A stretch of 49,930 bases of DNA, taken from the NCBI GenBank assembly GCA_017399145.1, contig JAFQEG010000024.1, positions 1 to 49,930 of the forward strand. Direction: 5' to 3'. Numbering within the stretch: position 1 is the stretch's first letter; each line of letters starts with the position of its first letter. The stretch comes from Clostridia bacterium (GTDB lineage Bacteria > Bacillota > Clostridia > Oscillospirales > CAG-272). Of this stretch, positions 35,627 to 42,925 are shown one piece after another. A program made the position numbers and the translations under genes. Below the pieces are notes generated by a model. The model was not told the origin of the DNA, did not search any database, and saw only the letters and a program-made list of their open reading frames with translations.

Positions 35627-36319
35627 ATGATTTATTCACACGAAGTTGAAAGCATGTGCTCCGTAGCAAAGGGACCAAAGCATGGTCCAGCTCCAATCCC
35701 TGAAGAGGGTAAGTGGGTACAAGCTAAGCAAATCACAGACATTTCAGGCTACACACACGGTATTGGCTGGTGTGCACCACAACAGGGCGCTTGTAAGCTA
35801 TCCCTTAACGTTAAGGACGGCATTATCGAGGAAGCTCTTGTTGAGACAATCGGTTGCTCAGGTATGACACACTCTGCAGCTATGGCAGCAGAAATCCTAC
35901 CAGGCAAAACACTTCTAGAGGCTCTTAATACAGACCTTGTATGCGATGCTATTAACACAGCTATGCGTGAGCTCTTCCTACAAATCGATTATGGTAGAAC
36001 ACAGTCTGCTTTCTCTGAGGGTGGTCTTGTTATCGGTGCAGGTATGGAGGACCTTGGTAAGGGTGCTCGTTCAATGGTTGGTACTATGTATGGTACTAAG
36101 GCAAAGGGTGTTCGTTACCTTGAAATGACAGAGGGCTACTGCACAAGAATGGCTCTTGATGAAAATGATCAGGTTATCGGTTATGAATTCGTTTCTCTCG
36201 GCAAAATGACTGACTTCATTAAGAAGGGCATGGAGCCAAACGAAGCTTACGAAAAGTCCAAGGGTACATACGGTAGATTTGCAGAGGCTGCAAAGTATAT
36301 CGACCCAAGAAAGCAATAA
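35627..36319 (+). CDS. NifU/IscU-like iron-sulfur cluster scaffold protein
   Basis: 230 residues. It aligns by eye with NifU/IscU N-domains in the region ETIGCSGMTHSAAMAAEILPGKTL, with conserved-type cysteines at 11, 49, 56 and 77; IscU-type scaffolds hold a nascent Fe-S cluster on three Cys. The protein is longer than classical IscU and has extra N- and C-terminal parts. It forms a two-gene unit with the GGGtGRT protein 14 bases downstream. This pairing is known from anaerobes, and the job of the pair is not established. I infer a cluster-assembly or cluster-binding role. Confidence 0.75.
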   Translation: MIYSHEVESMCSVAKGPKHGPAPIPEEGKWVQAKQITDISGYTHGIGWCAPQQGACKLSLNVKDGIIEEALVETIGCSGMTHSAAMAAEILPGKTLLEALNTDLVCDAINTAMRELFLQIDYGRTQSAFSEGGLVIGAGMEDLGKGARSMVGTMYGTKAKGVRYLEMTEGYCTRMALDENDQVIGYEFVSLGKMTDFIKKGMEPNEAYEKSKGTYGRFAEAAKYIDPRKQ

Positions 36320-36333
36320 GGAGGTAACGAATA

Positions 36334-37332
36334 ATGGCATTATTTGAAGGATACGAAAGAAGAGAAGCAAAGATTCTTGCTGCTCTTAAGGAATATGGTA
36401 TTAACTCCATTGAGGAGTGTAAGGAAATTACACTTGCTAAGGGTATCGACTGTGATAAGATTGTAAGAGAAACACAGCCAATCTGCTTTGAAAACGCAGT
36501 TTGGGCTTACACAGTAGGTGCTGCTATCGCAATTAAGAAGGGTTGCACAAAGGCTGCTGACGCTGCTGCTGCAATCGGTATCGGTCTACAATCATTCTGT
36601 ATCCCTGGCTCTGTTGCTGAAAACAGAAAGGTTGGTCTCGGCCATGGTAACCTTGGTAAGATGCTTCTTTCCGAGGAAACAGAGTGCTTCTGCTTCCTAG
36701 CAGGACACGAGTCCTTTGCTGCTGCTGAGGGTGCTATTAAGATTGCTCTTAATGCAAACAAGGTAAGAGTAAAGCCACTTAGAGTTATTTTGAACGGTCT
36801 TGGTAAGGACGCAGCTATGATTATTTCAAGAATCAACGGCTTTACTTACGTTGAGACTGAATTTGACCCTTACACAGAGGAGGTAAAGGTTCTCTCTGAA
36901 ACACCTTACTCAAAGGGTCCAAGAGCTGACGTTAAGTGCTATGGTAGTGATAGCGTTCCAGAGGGCGTTGCAATTATGAGACTTGAAAACGTTGGTGTAT
37001 CTATCACAGGTAACTCAACCAACCCAACAAGATTCCAACACCCAGTTGCAGGTACATACAAGAAATGGTGTAACGAAAACGGAGTTAACTACTTCTCAGT
37101 TGCATCAGGTGGTGGTACTGGTAGAACACTTCACCCAGATAATATGGCTGCAGGTCCTGCTTCCTACGGTATGACTGACACAATGGGTAGAATGCACGGC
37201 GATGCTCAATTCGCAGGCTCCTCATCTGTTCCAGCTCACGTAGAAATGATGGGTCTTATCGGCGCAGGTAACAACCCAATGGTTGGTATGACTGTTGCAG
37301 TTGCTGTTGCTGTTGAAGAGGCTTCAAAGTAA
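36334..37332 (+). CDS. GGGtGRT family protein
   Basis: 332 residues, identified by its name-giving motif GGGTGRT (259-265, inside VASGGGTGRTLHPDN). It has many Gly-rich loops (GLGHGNLGKML, VGAAIAIKKGC) and a C-terminal Met/Gly-rich stretch (MMGLIGAGNNPMVGMTVAVA). No catalytic family is known to me. It is cytoplasmic, with no signal peptide, and is co-transcribed with the NifU-like scaffold gene. Codon use looks strongly biased towards common codons, which would fit high expression. The ribosome site AAGGAGG is strong. Confidence 0.85.
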   Translation: MALFEGYERREAKILAALKEYGINSIEECKEITLAKGIDCDKIVRETQPICFENAVWAYTVGAAIAIKKGCTKAADAAAAIGIGLQSFCIPGSVAENRKVGLGHGNLGKMLLSEETECFCFLAGHESFAAAEGAIKIALNANKVRVKPLRVILNGLGKDAAMIISRINGFTYVETEFDPYTEEVKVLSETPYSKGPRADVKCYGSDSVPEGVAIMRLENVGVSITGNSTNPTRFQHPVAGTYKKWCNENGVNYFSVASGGGTGRTLHPDNMAAGPASYGMTDTMGRMHGDAQFAGSSSVPAHVEMMGLIGAGNNPMVGMTVAVAVAVEEASK

Positions 37333-37352
37333 TTTAAAAATTAAGTAAAAAG

Positions 37353-37397
37353 AAGACACACCATTTTGGTAATCCCTAGATGGTGTGTCTTTTTTGT
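37353..37397 (+). terminator. Terminator of the NifU-like/GGGtGRT operon
   Basis: AAGACACACCA (37353-37363) pairs with TGGTGTGTCTT (37381-37391), followed by TTTTTG. Confidence 0.9.
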
Positions 37398-37413
37398 GTT
37401 AAAAAGTATTTGC

Positions 37414-37446
37414 AAAAAATGCTATGCTTTTGACATAGCATTTTTA
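37414..37446. terminator. Bidirectional terminator-like hairpin
   Basis: AAATGCTATG pairs with CATAGCATTT around a 7-base loop, with A and T runs at the ends. It lies about 75 bases beyond the stop of the unknown protein on the minus strand and probably ends that transcript. Confidence 0.75.
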
Positions 37447-37520
37447 TGGTATGCAGAATGGGTGGTGCGAATGCCTTGGTCTGCGTAAGGATTAGCTTTG
37501 ATTTTCGAAAGTAGTTGGAA

Positions 37521-38693
37521 TTATTCTAAAAATTTAGCTTCTATATTTTTAAGTTCTCTTTCTACCTGTTCGAAATATTGTTGAACTGTTTTATATGAAC
37601 CACCAAGATGGGCTTTGATTCTTTTGTACTCGTTTATCTCATCCTTGCAGTTTTTGATTCTAGGAGCAACGATAGAGTACATTGATGAAAATCTACTTAC
37701 ACCAACGAGCTCCTTTTCTATTTTGTGTAAATCCTCGTTCTTTTTTTCAATGCAGGAATCGAGGTAGTCAATATCATTTTTGAGGAAATCTGGACAACGA
37801 TCTATAAGTGCCTTATAGACAGCAAACTTTGAATATGTAAGTAGGTTTTTAATAGATGTAATTATTTCTGCCTTTTGTGAAAAGGAAAAAATACCTAGCT
37901 TCGAGTAACTATCATATAATTCGTCTACCTTTGAAAGCCTGTCAGCTATTAGGGAAAAGCGCTTTGATTCCTCTTCAGTTAGATCTTTGAAATAAAAGTA
38001 TTTGTTTAAATATGTAGTCGTTTTTGTTTTATATTCAGTTCTATATGTAGGAACATTTCTAGATCTATTTTCGTAATCGGTGTATGATCTTTCGCTCATT
38101 ATAGGTGTGGCAATGTAACTGTTAGGGAGGTTTTCTTTTATTTCGAATCCTATAGGTACTTTTTCGGTGCGAGTAACCGCTACCTTTTCAGTTATAGTTC
38201 TTGTTCCATCTTGTACCTTGCCCGAGGCGATTGAGGAGTTTCTATCAGTAAGCGTTCCTTGTCCTGTGCCCATTCTATTATTAGTTTCACATAACATATC
38301 GAAAGCTATTTTGAGCCAAGGACCCTTCCAAATATTTTTAATTAACGAACCAGTAGTGGGTTTAATAAAGTCGTTTGTTTGGAAAAGGGGATAGAACTTA
38401 CCTTTTTTTTCGACTATTCGAACAAACAATACTGGACGTGAATATTGACTGCCGATGCTTGCAACATCCCACCAATGAAAGTAATTTTTATGTCTTGTTC
38501 CTGGCAATAAAATGCCCATTCCCAATTCCATACCGTTTACTTCGGAGAGAACTGCATGCTGAGCCCTTTTCCTCTCGGCTACCTTTTCTGGAGCGGGATC
38601 GTCGCTTGTGAAATACTCAGATCCTTTCCACTCTTCTTGTGCTAAGTGGTACATAATGCTTCCCATAAGATGGTCTAGCTTATTGCTTCTCAT
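37521..38693 (-). CDS. Unknown 390-residue protein downstream of a structured RNA
   Basis: 390 residues from the ATG at 38691-38693, which has AAAGGAG six bases upstream; the longer frame to 38801 runs back through the terminator hairpin and is not supported. No signal peptide or membrane segment is seen. The first half has LLPGTRHKNYFHWWDV and FVRIVEKKGKFYPLFQ, beta-rich in pattern. The second half (about 225-390) is Lys/Glu-rich and helical, with probable coiled coil near the end (LDSCIEKKNEDLHKIEKEL and EQVERELKNIEAKFLE). I do not recognise a family. Its only visible promoter lies before the RNA at 38731-38958, so its expression likely depends on read-through of the RNA's terminator. Confidence 0.6.
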   Translation of the reverse strand: MRSNKLDHLMGSIMYHLAQEEWKGSEYFTSDDPAPEKVAERKRAQHAVLSEVNGMELGMGILLPGTRHKNYFHWWDVASIGSQYSRPVLFVRIVEKKGKFYPLFQTNDFIKPTTGSLIKNIWKGPWLKIAFDMLCETNNRMGTGQGTLTDRNSSIASGKVQDGTRTITEKVAVTRTEKVPIGFEIKENLPNSYIATPIMSERSYTDYENRSRNVPTYRTEYKTKTTTYLNKYFYFKDLTEEESKRFSLIADRLSKVDELYDSYSKLGIFSFSQKAEIITSIKNLLTYSKFAVYKALIDRCPDFLKNDIDYLDSCIEKKNEDLHKIEKELVGVSRFSSMYSIVAPRIKNCKDEINEYKRIKAHLGGSYKTVQQYFEQVERELKNIEAKFLE

Positions 38694-38730
38694 AATGATC
38701 TCCTTTAAAATAAATATGAATATTTTCGGT

Positions 38731-38767
38731 GAAAATAAAAAGTGCGTCCAACCGAGGTCGAACGCAC
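38731..38767 (-). terminator. Terminator of the structured RNA
   Basis: GTGCGTTCGACCTCGG and its partner close with GTGCGT/ACGCAC pairs on the minus strand, followed by TTTTTATTTT. The gene at 38693 begins about 40 bases further. Confidence 0.85.
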
Positions 38768-38958
38768 CGAAAAACGTAAGTCCCCAATTGTCGCCAAACA
38801 AACTCTGAGCAATAATATGGGTTACATACTTATTTCAGACAGGGGATTACATTTTTACCAAATGTAAAATAGGTCTAAAATAAGTATCGACAAAAAAGGG
38901 TATAGTTATCCCAATAAAAAACACCCAAAAATTGCTATATTAAGTTTGTTTGGCAACC
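38731..38958 (-). ncRNA. Large structured RNA of unknown class, with its own promoter and terminator
   Basis: Read on the minus strand, the RNA starts at about 38955-38958. An outer stem of 15 pairs joins 38943-38957 to 38790-38804 (one G-U). A 6-pair stem follows (38931-38936 with 38808-38813), and GGGU/ACCC may extend it. A second 15-pair stem joins 38873-38887 to 38826-38840 and is capped by an 8-pair hairpin (38847-38854 with 38860-38867) with a 5-base loop. UCCCC (38842-38846) could pair with GGGGA (38781-38785) outside the outer stem as a pseudoknot. A terminator hairpin GUGCGU/ACGCAC (38762-38767, 38742-38747) and T run end it. It could be a 6S-like RNA, a riboswitch for the gene at 38693, or a new class. 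The pairing was checked by hand only. Confidence 0.65.
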
Positions 38959-38960
38959 TT

Positions 38961-38989
38961 ATTGTATCACAAAAACATTAAAATGTAAA
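38961..38989 (-). promoter_or_regulatory. Promoter of the structured RNA
   Basis: On the minus strand TTTACA (38984-38989), a 17-base spacer and an extended -10 box TGATACAAT (TACAAT at 38961-38966). The expected start of transcription falls within a few bases of the 5' end of the outer stem. Confidence 0.75.
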
Positions 38990-39042
38990 GGTATTTCGAA
39001 AAAATTGAAAAAAACAGTCAATCTGTGATATTACTTGATAAT

Positions 39043-39091: not shown

Positions 39092-40801
39092 TTATTTATT
39101 ATTTGTAAAAGCGACTGTAACGGTAGTGCCAATACCAAATTCACTTTCAATGGAAAGCTCTGCACCAATAAAAGCACAAATATGCTTGACAATTGCAAGC
39201 CCAAGACCGGTTCCACCAGTACGCTTAGAATGAGACTTATCAACTCGATAAAAGCGTTCGCATAAACGTGGCAAATGCTCTTTATCTATGCCGATTCCCG
39301 TGTCCTTTACCTGCATAATTATTCCACAAGCGGTGTTGGAAAAGGAAACGATAATTGAGCCATTGTCCTTATTGTATTTGATAGCATTCGATACAAGATT
39401 TTCTATAAGCTCAAATATCATATGTTGCTCGGATACTAGACTTGCAGAGCCGATAATTTCAGTTGAAATATTTTTCTTTTTGATTTCCTCTGAAAATTCA
39501 GTAAAAATTTCCTTGGTTGTTTCATCAAGAGAAACAAGTGCAGGTGCATTTTGTGTAGCATCCTTGTTTTCTATTTTTGATAACATGAGCATATCGGAAA
39601 TGAGAGAGCCAAGACGAATGCTCTCCTTATGAATATGTGCTATCTGCTTTTTAGTGCCCTCGTCAATGCCTTCCTTGTTCATAAGAACCTCGGAAAAGCC
39701 TTGCATAACTGTTATTGGTGTTTTAAGCTCGTGAGATGCATTCGCAAAAAAGTCGCTTTTTTGCTTCTCAATCAGCTTTTCCTTTGTGATGTCGGTAACA
39801 ATAATTATAGCGGAAATATTGTCGCATATTACGTCGTTAGTAACATTTGTAATCACTACTGATAGATACATATCATCGTATATACACTCAAAGGCAAAGC
39901 TTTCACCTATATGTTGAATAATTTTTTCATAAACGGGAAGCTTTTCAATTAAGAAAACAAGGTCCCGTCCTATGTCTGAGCTTGAACCATTAAACATATG
40001 AAGTGCTCGCTTGTTAGCAAAAACAATATGCTTTGATTTATCAAGAGCTATAATGCTTTGCGAAACGTTATCAAGCACGGTATTTAGCTTAATACGTTCA
40101 GCATCTGCTATCCGTATATGATTATGAATGTTTGAATTTAATTCGTTTATCTGGCTGAGAACCGAGAAAAGCTCAGGCTCGCTCATATCTGTATTTATAG
40201 GCATATATTTTCCTTCATTCAAGCTCCTTAAGCTATCTCCAATTTCGGTAACCTTGGAGGAAATGTTGCGTGAAAGAATATTTGCAAGCACAAAGGATAG
40301 AATAAGAGAGATAACAAGCACAAGCACAAGCAATGGAATTAACGCAGTAATATAAGGGGTCCCATCACTGCTTCTAACAGCAAGCCTTAAAATTACCTGA
40401 GCACCATTAGAAAACTCTGTTACAGTTGCGTAATATGTCATATCACACTTGAAGGTTTCGGAGTATCTTTTTACTGTATTTGGTACTCCTGCAAGTGCGT
40501 TTTTGATTTCCTCACGGTTAGCATGGTTTTCGAGCTTTGAATTTGTATCACTTTCATAGAGAACGTCACCATTAAGGTCAAAAATTGTAATACGAAGCTC
40601 GGAATTATCCTTATATTTTGCCAAATTAGAAAAATCATCTTCGCTATTTAAAAGAGAAGAGGCAAGCTCGGTTTCTTCCTTCAATCGTTGGTTTATGATG
40701 TTTTTTGTGTTTAAATTAACAGCTATAATTCCGAAAACAAACATTAACAGCACTATAACAATTGAAACTACAAAAAATCTAAAAAATATTTTCTTTTTCA
40801 T
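39092..40801 (-). CDS. phoR: PhoR-type sensor histidine kinase
   Basis: 569 residues. Two membrane segments (about 7-29 and 151-176) flank an extracytoplasmic domain. A HAMP-like linker and a PAS region (about 241-340) follow. The H-box is SHELKTP with His357, and the catalytic domain has ENLVSNAIKYNK (N-box), DTGIGID and GTGLGLAIVKH. In the phosphate system this kinase phosphorylates PhoB when phosphate is low, in contact with PstSCAB and PhoU. It is the last gene of the pst-pho operon and overlaps phoB by four bases. Confidence 0.92.
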   Translation of the reverse strand: MKKKIFFRFFVVSIVIVLLMFVFGIIAVNLNTKNIINQRLKEETELASSLLNSEDDFSNLAKYKDNSELRITIFDLNGDVLYESDTNSKLENHANREEIKNALAGVPNTVKRYSETFKCDMTYYATVTEFSNGAQVILRLAVRSSDGTPYITALIPLLVLVLVISLILSFVLANILSRNISSKVTEIGDSLRSLNEGKYMPINTDMSEPELFSVLSQINELNSNIHNHIRIADAERIKLNTVLDNVSQSIIALDKSKHIVFANKRALHMFNGSSSDIGRDLVFLIEKLPVYEKIIQHIGESFAFECIYDDMYLSVVITNVTNDVICDNISAIIIVTDITKEKLIEKQKSDFFANASHELKTPITVMQGFSEVLMNKEGIDEGTKKQIAHIHKESIRLGSLISDMLMLSKIENKDATQNAPALVSLDETTKEIFTEFSEEIKKKNISTEIIGSASLVSEQHMIFELIENLVSNAIKYNKDNGSIIVSFSNTACGIIMQVKDTGIGIDKEHLPRLCERFYRVDKSHSKRTGGTGLGLAIVKHICAFIGAELSIESEFGIGTTVTVAFTNNK

Positions 40802-41463
40802 TGTGCTTCAAAACGATATCCTATACCGCGTACGGTAACAATTACATCGCCACCCCCACATTCTGTTATTTTATCACGGAGCTGAGAAATATGAATATCA
40901 AGTGTTCTTGTTTCACCCATAAAGCTTTCACCCCAAACCTCGCGGAATAGCTCCTCACGTTCAACTGTAACACCGGTATGCGCTATCAACATTTTTAAAA
41001 GCTTAAATTCCTTCAAGGTAAGCCCCAAATCACGACCTTCAAAAAAGATTTTGTAAACATTGTTGTCAATTACAAAACCCCTTTGGCTTTTAACATAAAG
41101 ATTTGCACGACGAATGTTAGTTTTGATACGAGCAATTAATTCAAGGACGGAGAAGGGCTTAGCGATATAATCATCAGCACCCTTGTTAAGACCTTTAACT
41201 GCACTAATTTCATCAGATTTTGCACTCACAATAAGAACAGGTATTTTTTCGTCAACCTCTCGTATTTTTGTAAGTATGGTGTATCCGTCCATATCGGGAA
41301 GCATTATATCGAGAATAATTAGATCAGGGCGATTTTTCTCAAATTGGCAGAAAAAATCCTTGCCATTTTCAAATAGCATGGTTTTATAAACTCCCTCAAA
41401 AGCACCCTCGTAAAGCTCTCTTAAGCCCTCGTCATCCTCGACAATGTAAATAAGCTCTTCCAT
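40798..41463 (-). CDS. phoB: PhoB/PhoP-type response regulator
   Basis: 221 residues. The receiver domain has the phospho-acceptor Asp52 (LIILDIMLPD), the acidic pair EDDE near residues 9-12, and Lys in AKPFSVLEL. The C-terminal winged-helix DNA-binding domain carries EREELFREVWGE and TRTLDIHISQLRDK. It would bind the repeat at 45617-45633 when phosphorylated. Its start overlaps the phoU stop by one base (TAATG) and its stop overlaps phoR by four, so the three are coupled. Confidence 0.93.
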   Translation of the reverse strand: MEELIYIVEDDEGLRELYEGAFEGVYKTMLFENGKDFFCQFEKNRPDLIILDIMLPDMDGYTILTKIREVDEKIPVLIVSAKSDEISAVKGLNKGADDYIAKPFSVLELIARIKTNIRRANLYVKSQRGFVIDNNVYKIFFEGRDLGLTLKEFKLLKMLIAHTGVTVEREELFREVWGESFMGETRTLDIHISQLRDKITECGGGDVIVTVRGIGYRFEAQ

Positions 41464-42116
41464 TAAAATTTTTGGTGTACCCCCGTTTCGTTATATTTAG
41501 TCCATTCGGCAACGTTTACAGCATGGTCACCGATACGCTCCAAATATTTGGCAACCATCATAAGCTCAATACCTTGGTCGCCATTGCTTCCATCCTTTTT
41601 TATAAGCTCGATAAGCTCGGTTTTTACTGTATCAAAAAGCTCGTCCATCTGGTCGTCAAGTGCAATAACCTCATCAGCAAGCTTAGCATCATTGTTTATG
41701 AATGAATTTACGCTTTCTCTTACCATTTTTATAGCTAGATTTCCCATCTCTTTGGTATGGGTTAATTCCTTGATGTATTTTTCACCCGGCATTGAATAAA
41801 CAAGCTCACCAATGTCTGCAGCCTGGTCTCCAAAGCGTTCAATATCTGTAATCATCTTAAGAGCAGTTGAAACCTCACGAAAATCCTTTGCAACAGGCTG
41901 TTGCTTAAGTAAGATTCGCATGCATCTTTTTTCGATAGCCATTTCGTATTCGTCCACTCTTTTGTCCACAACTCCGATGCTCTTTCCAAGCTCACGGTCT
42001 TTGTTTACAAGAGCAGTAATAGCATCGCTAATCATTTGCTCGGTGAGTCTGCACATTTCTACTAGCTGTTTTTTTAATTCGGCAAGCTCGTCCTCAAATA
42101 TTTTTCTAATAGACAT
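41463..42116 (-). CDS. phoU: PhoU, phosphate signalling protein
   Basis: 217 residues from the ATG at 42114-42116, which has AAAGGAG; a longer frame to 42158 has no such site. PhoU is a cytoplasmic helical protein that links PstSCAB activity to PhoR and keeps the response off when phosphate is plentiful. The protein shows the two tandem three-helix PhoU repeats with the metal-binding E-x3-D-x-x-x-D-like pattern (for example TDIERFGDQAADIGE and KYLERIGDHAVNVAEW). It follows pstB by 38 bases. Confidence 0.95.
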   Translation of the reverse strand: MSIRKIFEDELAELKKQLVEMCRLTEQMISDAITALVNKDRELGKSIGVVDKRVDEYEMAIEKRCMRILLKQQPVAKDFREVSTALKMITDIERFGDQAADIGELVYSMPGEKYIKELTHTKEMGNLAIKMVRESVNSFINNDAKLADEVIALDDQMDELFDTVKTELIELIKKDGSNGDQGIELMMVAKYLERIGDHAVNVAEWTKYNETGVHQKF

Positions 42117-42154
42117 TCTTATCTCCTTTATTATATCATAAAATTTCTGCAAAA

Positions 42155-42925
42155 TCAACCGAATCTTCCTGTAATATAGCGCTCGGTACGTTCATCTCTA
42201 GGTGAAGTAAAGATATCGTCTGTGTTTCCGTATTCAACAAGCTCACCAAGAAGGAAAAATGCTGTTTTATCAGCAATTCGTGTTGCCTGTTGCATATTGT
42301 GGGTAACGATAACAATAGTAATATCCTTTTTTAATTCCTCCATTAGCTCCTCAATTTTTCCTGTGGAAATAGGGTCAAGAGCAGAGGTTGGCTCGTCCAT
42401 TAGTAAAACCTTTGGACTTGCTGCAAGAGAACGTGCAATGCAAAGCCTTTGCTGTTGTCCTCCACTCATGCCGAGGGCGTTTTTGCGAAGCCTGTCCTTT
42501 ACCTCATCCCAAATACTGGCACGACGTAATGACTGCTCAACTATCTCGTCAAGCTCACTTTTTTTAGTAATACCAAAGGTTCTTGGAGCAAAGGCGATGT
42601 TGTCGTATATGCTCATTGGAAAGGGATTAGGCTTTTGGAAAACCATACCTACGTTTTTTCTTAAAAGATTTACGTCTGTTTCCTTATCGTAAATGTCAAC
42701 ACCACCTATTCTAAAATCTCCCTCAATGCGACAACCTTCAACTAAGTCATTCATTCGGTTGAATATTTTTAGAAAGGTTGACTTTCCGCAACCCGATGGA
42801 CCAATAAAAGCAGTTACTTGCTTTTCTGGAATTTCAATATTTATATTTTTTAATGCTTGAAAATCACCATAAAAAAGATTGCAGTTTTTTGCGATGATAT
42901 CCATATTACCTATAAATTCGTTCAT
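42155..42925 (-). CDS. pstB: PstB, phosphate transport ATPase
   Basis: 256 residues. Walker [10 protein letters not shown] (42-50), signature [16 protein letters not shown], Walker [13 protein letters not shown] and switch His (VTHNMQQA) are all intact. The sequence [17 protein letters not shown] is typical of PstB. It energises phosphate import through PstC and PstA. Its start codon overlaps the pstA stop by four bases. Confidence 0.97.

Follow-up and report, generated by a model that had tools for sequence, protein, structure and literature searches.

What kind of RNA is encoded on the minus strand at positions 38731-38989 of a 49,930-nucleotide stretch of DNA from a Clostridia bacterium (hereafter the window)? 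The original prediction, made from the letters alone, described a large structured RNA with its own promoter and terminator, and offered two roles for it, a standalone RNA or a cis-regulatory one. We have examined this RNA through its fold, its homologues, the genes behind it and its chromosomal surroundings.

Fold and layout of the window RNA

The minus strand of 38731-38989 folds with an energy of -84.2 kcal/mol, compared with -49.1 kcal/mol (sd 4.18) for 200 dinucleotide shuffles (z -8.4), and none of the 200 shuffles folded as well. Homologues and covariation, described below, agree with the presence of a large structured RNA on this strand and show that it is not a chance fold. The element itself is 220 nt long (38735..38954, minus strand, as are all features of the window given below). 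It begins with the first base of the outer stem P1, where transcription is predicted to start, extends into the U-rich tail of the terminator, and scores 169.3 bits with our covariance model R1.

The anatomy proposed originally was recovered. The long outer stem P1 is formed by GCCAAACAAACUU (38942..38954, fold and covariation) and GAGUUUGUUUGGC (38793..38805), with changes on both sides in 12 of the 13 P1 pairs. Within it, the minimum-energy fold contains a 15-bp inner stem, P3 (38873..38887 with 38826..38840), and an 8-bp apical hairpin, P4 (38847..38867), whose pairing was also tested in other orders. A 3-bp side hairpin, GGG-AUAACUAUA-CCC, found in the long subtype, stands on the 5′ strand only (38898..38912; fold and pair counts). 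Conserved stretches of the element are AAUA, GGUAAAAA and ACAAU. The pairing of UCCCC with GGGGA, proposed as a possible pseudoknot, is real and turned out to be one end of a 15-bp helix between an apical strand A, AAAAAUGUAAUCCCC (38856-38842), and a strand B located after P1, GGGGACUUACGUUUUU (38785-38770). Covariation and fold both indicate this helix, with which P4 competes for the A strand. A further helix had escaped the original prediction: the strand following the outer stem, CAAUUGGGG (38790-38782), overlaps the pseudoknot B strand and can pair with CCUCGGUUG (38757-38749), located in the loop and 3′ arm of the terminator. Fold and covariation also indicate this putative antiterminator.

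The intrinsic terminator (38735..38768) consists of a 12-bp stem (38768-38741) and a U tract. The promoter (38961..38989), which scores 10 out of 12, combines a -35 box TTTACA (38989-38984), a spacer of 17 nt and a -10 box TACAAT (38966-38961) preceded by TG (extended -10), with 6 nt between the -10 box and the outer stem. Taken singly, these two signals say little because such matches are found at near-chance frequency (7 promoter-like matches for 5.2 expected, 2 terminator-like for 1.2 expected); their weight rests on a geometry that recurs in the whole family. Promoter scores of at least 9.5 were obtained for 115 of 139 representative elements, compared with 4 when the upstream sequence was shuffled. 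In these 115 promoters, the -10 box ends exactly 6 nt before P1 in 105 cases and the spacer is 17 nt long in 110, and TG precedes the -10 box in 125 of the 139 representatives. With the -10 box so placed, transcription is expected to start on the first nucleotide of P1 or on its immediate neighbour, in line with the original prediction. On the other side of the window element, a ribosome-binding site, AAAGGAG (38700..38706), precedes an orphan ORF of 390 aa, P0001 (37521..38693), which has no match in Pfam, PADLOC or NCBIfam (E 0.001).

Compensatory changes in helices that share strands

RNAalifold applied to 24 elements produced an outer stem with many compensatory changes, together with an unexpected helix in which CAAUYGGAGU, from the strand that follows the outer stem, pairs with RCUUCGGUUG of the terminator. 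Pairs were counted on an alignment of 102 rows (A3) obtained with a model that contains neither the pseudoknot nor the antiterminator; the counts include six weak rows (E 8e-5 or weaker) overlapping another match on the opposite strand. On A3, 95.4% of the pseudoknot cells are paired, with both-side changes in 8 of 15 pairs, and 91.3% of the antiterminator cells, with both-side changes in 6 of 10. The number of antiterminator pairs was reached by 3 of 500 shuffles, whereas the number of pair types was reached by 57 of 500 and is not beyond shuffles, which we count against the attenuator reading proposed below. P1, the side hairpin and the terminator are 97.6% paired, with 24 of 25 pairs changed on both sides, counts that lean towards the model because these helices are present in it; the same holds for an alignment (A6) that keeps eleven weak rows overlapping on the opposite strand. 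When partners were shifted by 1-3 columns, pairing dropped to 27-58% for all three helix sets counted on A3. Compensatory changes, the check proposed with the original prediction, are thus abundant in the outer stem and the pseudoknot.

We also compared the pairing of each strand with its own partner and with partners taken from other elements, using 139 representatives (22 of 210 rows, partial, on the opposite strand or badly cut, had been dropped). The z-scores were -32.9 for P1, -15.9 for the pseudoknot and -12.6 for the antiterminator, each reached by none of 5000 permutations, although shared ancestry remains in these values. For the terminator, z was -21.8 in the 108 elements of the long subtype; this figure alone is used, a strand without duplex having distorted those obtained for short elements and for all elements together. 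The test was repeated outside the window's order but within the class, on 74 elements carried by 18 genomes (13 of 87 rows having been removed). P1 (-21.7), pseudoknot (-13.0), P4 (-11.5), antiterminator (-11.5) and terminator (-16.5) all scored beyond the 5000 permutations, again with shared ancestry remaining. Of five control pairings, four gave values between +0.9 and -1.8, with the P4 strand against the terminator reached by 211 of 5000 permutations; the reversed antiterminator gave -3.6 (2 of 5000), and these last two controls also count against the attenuator reading. Re-paired antiterminators can be seen in other orders, such as UUGGAG with CUCCAA (L343) and AGCAUAGC with GCUAUGCU (L347). 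In the short subtype, the antiterminator looks less perfect by eye.

Columns of the B strand that covary with the apical strand do so with the terminator loop as well. Because they pair with both partners, the pseudoknot and the antiterminator cannot coexist, and the compensatory changes support a set of three helices, pseudoknot, antiterminator and terminator, that are predicted to be mutually exclusive.

A model of transcription attenuation

From these comparisons, we consider it probable that the element is a cis-acting transcription attenuator of riboswitch type, belonging to a family outside Rfam. As in riboswitches, a conserved structured domain is located in the 5′ leader of genes and is followed by a putative expression platform in which exclusive helices would control termination. 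The helices, their predicted mutual exclusion, the geometry of promoter and terminator, and the position before genes are supported by the alignments; that the RNA switches in the cell, and in which direction it responds, we infer.

In the proposed mechanism, transcription would begin where P1 begins. Two states would then be open to the apical A strand: it could remain folded in P4, the local hairpin, or form the pseudoknot with the B strand located after P1. With the pseudoknot formed, B would be occupied, the terminator would fold and transcription would stop, leaving the gene off. With B free, its 5′ half would pair with the terminator loop as the latter emerges, before the 3′ arm of the terminator is complete, and polymerase would read through, turning the gene on. 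This choice would be tilted by a signal shared within the cell, most probably an ion or small molecule bound by the domain made of P1-P4 and the pseudoknot; within the attenuator explanation, direct binding of a ligand seems to us slightly favoured. When the growth of the window RNA was followed with a folding program without pseudoknots, the antiterminator fold (-70.4 kcal/mol) was obtained while the 3′ arm of the terminator was incomplete. For the full-length RNA, the terminator fold reached -76.7 kcal/mol, versus -71.5 kcal/mol when the antiterminator was imposed. The complete RNA, folded as nested helices by a program that cannot combine the pseudoknot with P1, thus favours termination without ligand, a point that we count against the attenuator.

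Size and distribution of the family

BLAST detected the element, whole or partial, in 21 of 57 related genomes, often in several copies, and a DNA pattern scan of named genomes returned at least 118 stretches. The 80 pattern matches listed are, by their record titles, from Clostridia-type MAGs (one titled only as Bacillota), many of which name ruminant or rabbit gut. These 80 loci, out of the 118 or more, were searched with R1, which matched all of them. The same model found 5 copies in the genome of the window, and matched 83 of 245 sampled genomes of its order and 1 of 398 in a sample of the phylum, the latter being the window's own genome. A second covariance model, R2, corresponding to a short subtype of about 160 nt, gave matches in 100 of the 391 class genomes scanned; 97 of these belong to orders other than that of the window. 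Among 388 genomes of the phylum, it matched the own genome alone (at most 7 candidates being scored per genome in both scans). In ten genomes picked as copy-rich, for which 150 candidates were scored, we counted 8, 10, 12, 12, 13, 14, 22, 26, 29 and 30 copies. Tandem copies exist, including one triplet (L036; first copy 46.4 bits).

Viral contigs contained no exact pattern match, and plasmids no match for the window element or for an element of the short subtype. For the latter, matches were obtained on two fecal phage scaffolds, both unverified: judged by its ORFs, one reads as chromosome, and the other carries an integrase-like ORF. The hypothesis of a phage or plasmid element was rejected. 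On the unverified phage scaffold L374 (MT837627.1), an integrase-like ORF is followed by the element and then by zinc-ribbon and lipoprotein-like ORFs.

Genes located behind the element

A ribosome site and an ORF on the same strand follow 125 of the 139 representatives, at a median distance of 25 nt and within 30 nt of the element end in 80 of the 139. For elements of other orders, an ORF follows in 63 of 76 cases, within 30 nt in 29. These counts were made without a random control and with a permissive rule (within 320 nt, a 4-base ribosome-site word and an ORF that either has 50 aa or continues past the locus end); the 14 of 139 and 13 of 76 elements lacking an ORF by this rule are counted against the attenuator reading. 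Inspection by eye suggests that the terminator of one locus (L034) has had its 3′ arm replaced; the L034 and L074 elements both precede TnpV-like genes.

In the window's order, N-terminal hydrophobic segments were found in 56 of 111 downstream proteins, compared with 100 of 483 other ORFs of the same loci, and lipoboxes in 23 of 111 compared with 13 of 483. This test relies on simple hydropathy and motif rules, and its control ORFs, also defined by a simple rule, may include false ones. Pfam was searched with 95 of 101 cluster representatives. Among the 25 families listed, out of 63, zinc ribbons had up to 6 members and the others one each, including leucine-rich repeats, an EcoRI-type methylase, an AMP-binding enzyme, TnpV, a glycosyltransferase, LiaF-TM and MACPF. 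In other orders, mostly in copy-rich genomes, BspA-type leucine-rich repeat proteins account for 22 of 52 scanned genes (from a set of 63, in which two were listed twice and nine short or doubtful ORFs were left out). A cluster of 14 small Cys-rich proteins of the CLGNGEQGFECCCDECDYYLLCFPEF type is found behind elements in the window's order (e.g. L077:6665-7033), some of its loci being perhaps one contig counted twice, and two similar proteins are located behind elements of G714, from another order (L305:1684-1908, L318:1270-1482). These proteins are possibly exported or modified peptides. Short AbrB/MazE/MraZ-like proteins with a Cys-rich tail also recur downstream (L084, L311, L341, L347 and L349, recognized partly by eye) and are possibly regulators within the regulon. 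A defence-gene regulon was rejected, PADLOC matches being scattered single members.

Beyond this enrichment in exported proteins and lipoproteins, the downstream genes are mostly unrelated and share no common pathway, which again counts against the attenuator reading. Of 1877 pairs of elements that reach at least 60% (identity times coverage), 63 have similar downstream sequences, pair numbers being inflated by a few elements present under more than one locus id, versus 31 of 36 pairs for TPP riboswitches (30 loci of the same order). A cell location shared in place of a pathway suits a global factor, and the same switch could respond to a protein acting in trans, bound to the P1-P4 domain or to the hairpins. 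This explanation overlaps with ours and differs in the signal; it also accords with a transcribed unit conserved end to end, terminator included. We found no candidate for such a protein among GGDEF proteins, where one was sought, and we regard this version as rather unlikely.

The persistence of the RNA in front of changing genes is best seen at the locus of the window. In the window, G022 and G001, the element occupies the same place beside a GGGtGRT operon, but each of the three has a different gene, or set of genes, between element and operon. The RNA region of the window is 88% identical to that of each of the two other genomes, while the operon is 95% and 88% identical, respectively. At this locus, G013 has a diverged element and lipoprotein-like genes. 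The region beside the GGGtGRT operon (35627-39000 in the window; loci L257, L258 and L254) is a gene-turnover spot, with different genes in each of the four related genomes.

Three syntenic loci that keep the RNA while the gene behind it differs could be taken to indicate a standalone small RNA acting in trans, in which case the terminator would be its 3′ end and the downstream genes simple neighbours; the predicted start at P1, and copies without an evident gene behind, agree with this possibility. However, a start codon at no more than 30 nt from the end of so many elements leaves little room for another promoter, and the covarying antiterminator, the tandem copies and the enrichment of the genes in exported proteins also speak against it, so that we judge this role improbable. 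Of the two roles offered by the original prediction, the cis-regulatory one is thus supported, by the position before genes, the tandem copies and the covarying antiterminator, and the standalone one is not favoured.

Flanking sequences

Neither flank shows tblastx similarity in 112 of 127 pairs of close but non-identical elements (at least 80% identity over at least 90% of the length), the contexts often being of 1-3 kb, nor in 110 of 123 pairs when wider contexts were used where present. These pair counts are inflated by a few elements that appear under several ids (three for the window element in the set of 127). Of 129 elements, 13 have a tRNA or tmRNA gene in the 500 nt upstream (e.g. L243, L247, L080), whereas none of 131 has one in the 500 nt downstream, suggesting variable integration neighbourhoods. 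These data, together with an integrase gene near one copy, could point to a mobile cassette, that is, a promoter-RNA-terminator unit, or the RNA with its gene, moving as a selfish or accessory unit whose fold serves mobility or insulation. However, identity is only 40-60% across the promoter, reaches background by about 60 nt upstream, and is at most 38% from 6 nt after the element. With so sharp a drop at the RNA ends and so weak a similarity across the promoter, no fixed mobile ends can be seen; moreover, at the locus next to the GGGtGRT operon, synteny of the element is kept and the gene alone has changed. A moving cassette with fixed ends was rejected on these grounds, and since a mobile unit has no need of three exclusive helices, we hold the wider hypothesis of mobility to be very improbable.

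Directly upstream of the window element are genes for pstB, phoU, a response regulator and a histidine kinase (39092-42925); in G022, the stretch upstream of the element matches instead window genes located beyond the pstB/phoU operon. Two elements have a Gut-1 RNA (RF01706) on their upstream side, at distances of about 120 and 250 nt (L089:1168-1239 and L297:1907-1978).

Comparison with known RNA families

At gathering score, no Rfam family (Rfam 15) was detected in the window. The tRNA, tmRNA and Gut-1 matches obtained in 16 related loci were all away from the element positions, where no family was detected either. A permissive search with the window element returned chance-level matches only (best E 3), and a permissive search of eight further loci (E up to 1) returned nothing at the elements. 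Likewise, the models for c-di-GMP-I, c-di-GMP-II, preQ1-I and T-box gave no match at the elements in either gathering or permissive searches. The Rfam search suggested with the original prediction therefore gave no hit at the element, and its statements that the RNA is no common riboswitch and no 6S RNA have held. That an ordinary 6S RNA or an already known riboswitch was overlooked is hardly credible: a long hairpin and a multicopy leader would fit, but there is no Rfam match, the 6S RNA of this genome was found on another contig (G000:C36:13043-13268, 60.4 bits), and GGDEF, not found in the own genome (76% complete), is commoner in genomes of the order without the element (101 of 162) than in those with it (35 of 83; Fisher p 0.003, kinship ignored).

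6S RNA is a long hairpin with its own promoter. The element resembles it (RF00013) in these two features, but differs by its pseudoknot, its antiterminator and the gene behind it, in a genome that has a separate 6S RNA; with no gathering-level match at the element, this identity was rejected. The closest likeness in switching logic that we can cite is the transcriptional class I type II preQ1 riboswitch of Bacillus subtilis, in which, as described in part of the source, a pseudoknot rivals an antiterminator and its formation leads to the intrinsic terminator, the off state (PMC11625349). The putative logic of the element would be the same, with a pseudoknot leading to the terminator. However, its long outer stem encloses a pseudoknot strand, its terminator is conserved in sequence, its genes are of many kinds and it has no match in Rfam. 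Riboswitches for c-di-GMP are often found as tandem leaders and, in the portion of the source available to us, c-di-GMP-II tandems are reported before genes of surface-anchor proteins (PMC9481103). The element resembles c-di-GMP-I and c-di-GMP-II riboswitches by its tandem leaders and surface-protein genes but is without Rfam match, and 48 of the 83 element-bearing genomes of the order have no GGDEF match. We rejected c-di-GMP as the ligand because of the negative association of GGDEF with the element; with no GGDEF found in the own genome (76% complete), and GGDEF commoner in genomes of the order without the element, c-di-GMP is unlikely as the signal.

The candidate motifs of surveys of intergenic regions (PMC11109978) and of the human microbiome (PMC8040213) are, in the parts of these sources at hand, also unassigned structured leaders, some with terminators. 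Those parts contain no motif fitting the description of the element, which could be listed under a number in the supplements. More generally, literature searches, with supplements and most subscription papers outside their scope, returned no publication recognisable as describing it, an earlier numbered listing being possible. We take the element as a new family, absent from Rfam, of a known kind, the structured attenuators. Its unusual traits are the fixed start at the outer stem, the sequence-conserved terminator, the high copy number and the near independence from the identity of the gene.

Discussion

To our knowledge, orphan riboswitch-like families with so many copies per genome are rare. 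In the attenuator that we propose, the complete switch (start site, sensor, antiterminator and terminator) can be read from covariation, so that each helix can be tested at once in vitro.

As a tentative but tenable view, the element may be a global RNA switch of gut Clostridia. A single conserved attenuator, present in up to about 30 copies per genome of 2-3 Mb, would bring much of a variable surface proteome (lipoproteins, BspA-type repeat proteins, small Cys-rich proteins) under the control of a single signal inside the cell, perhaps an ion or second messenger for which no riboswitch is known. The RNA would then serve as a stable regulatory socket, with accessory genes exchanged behind it; its persistence while the gene behind it changes suggests a route by which newly acquired genes could enter existing control. 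If this is true, one switch over up to about 30 genes, many of them for exported proteins, would indicate that largely uncultured gut Clostridia use a shared signal for the remodelling of their surface.
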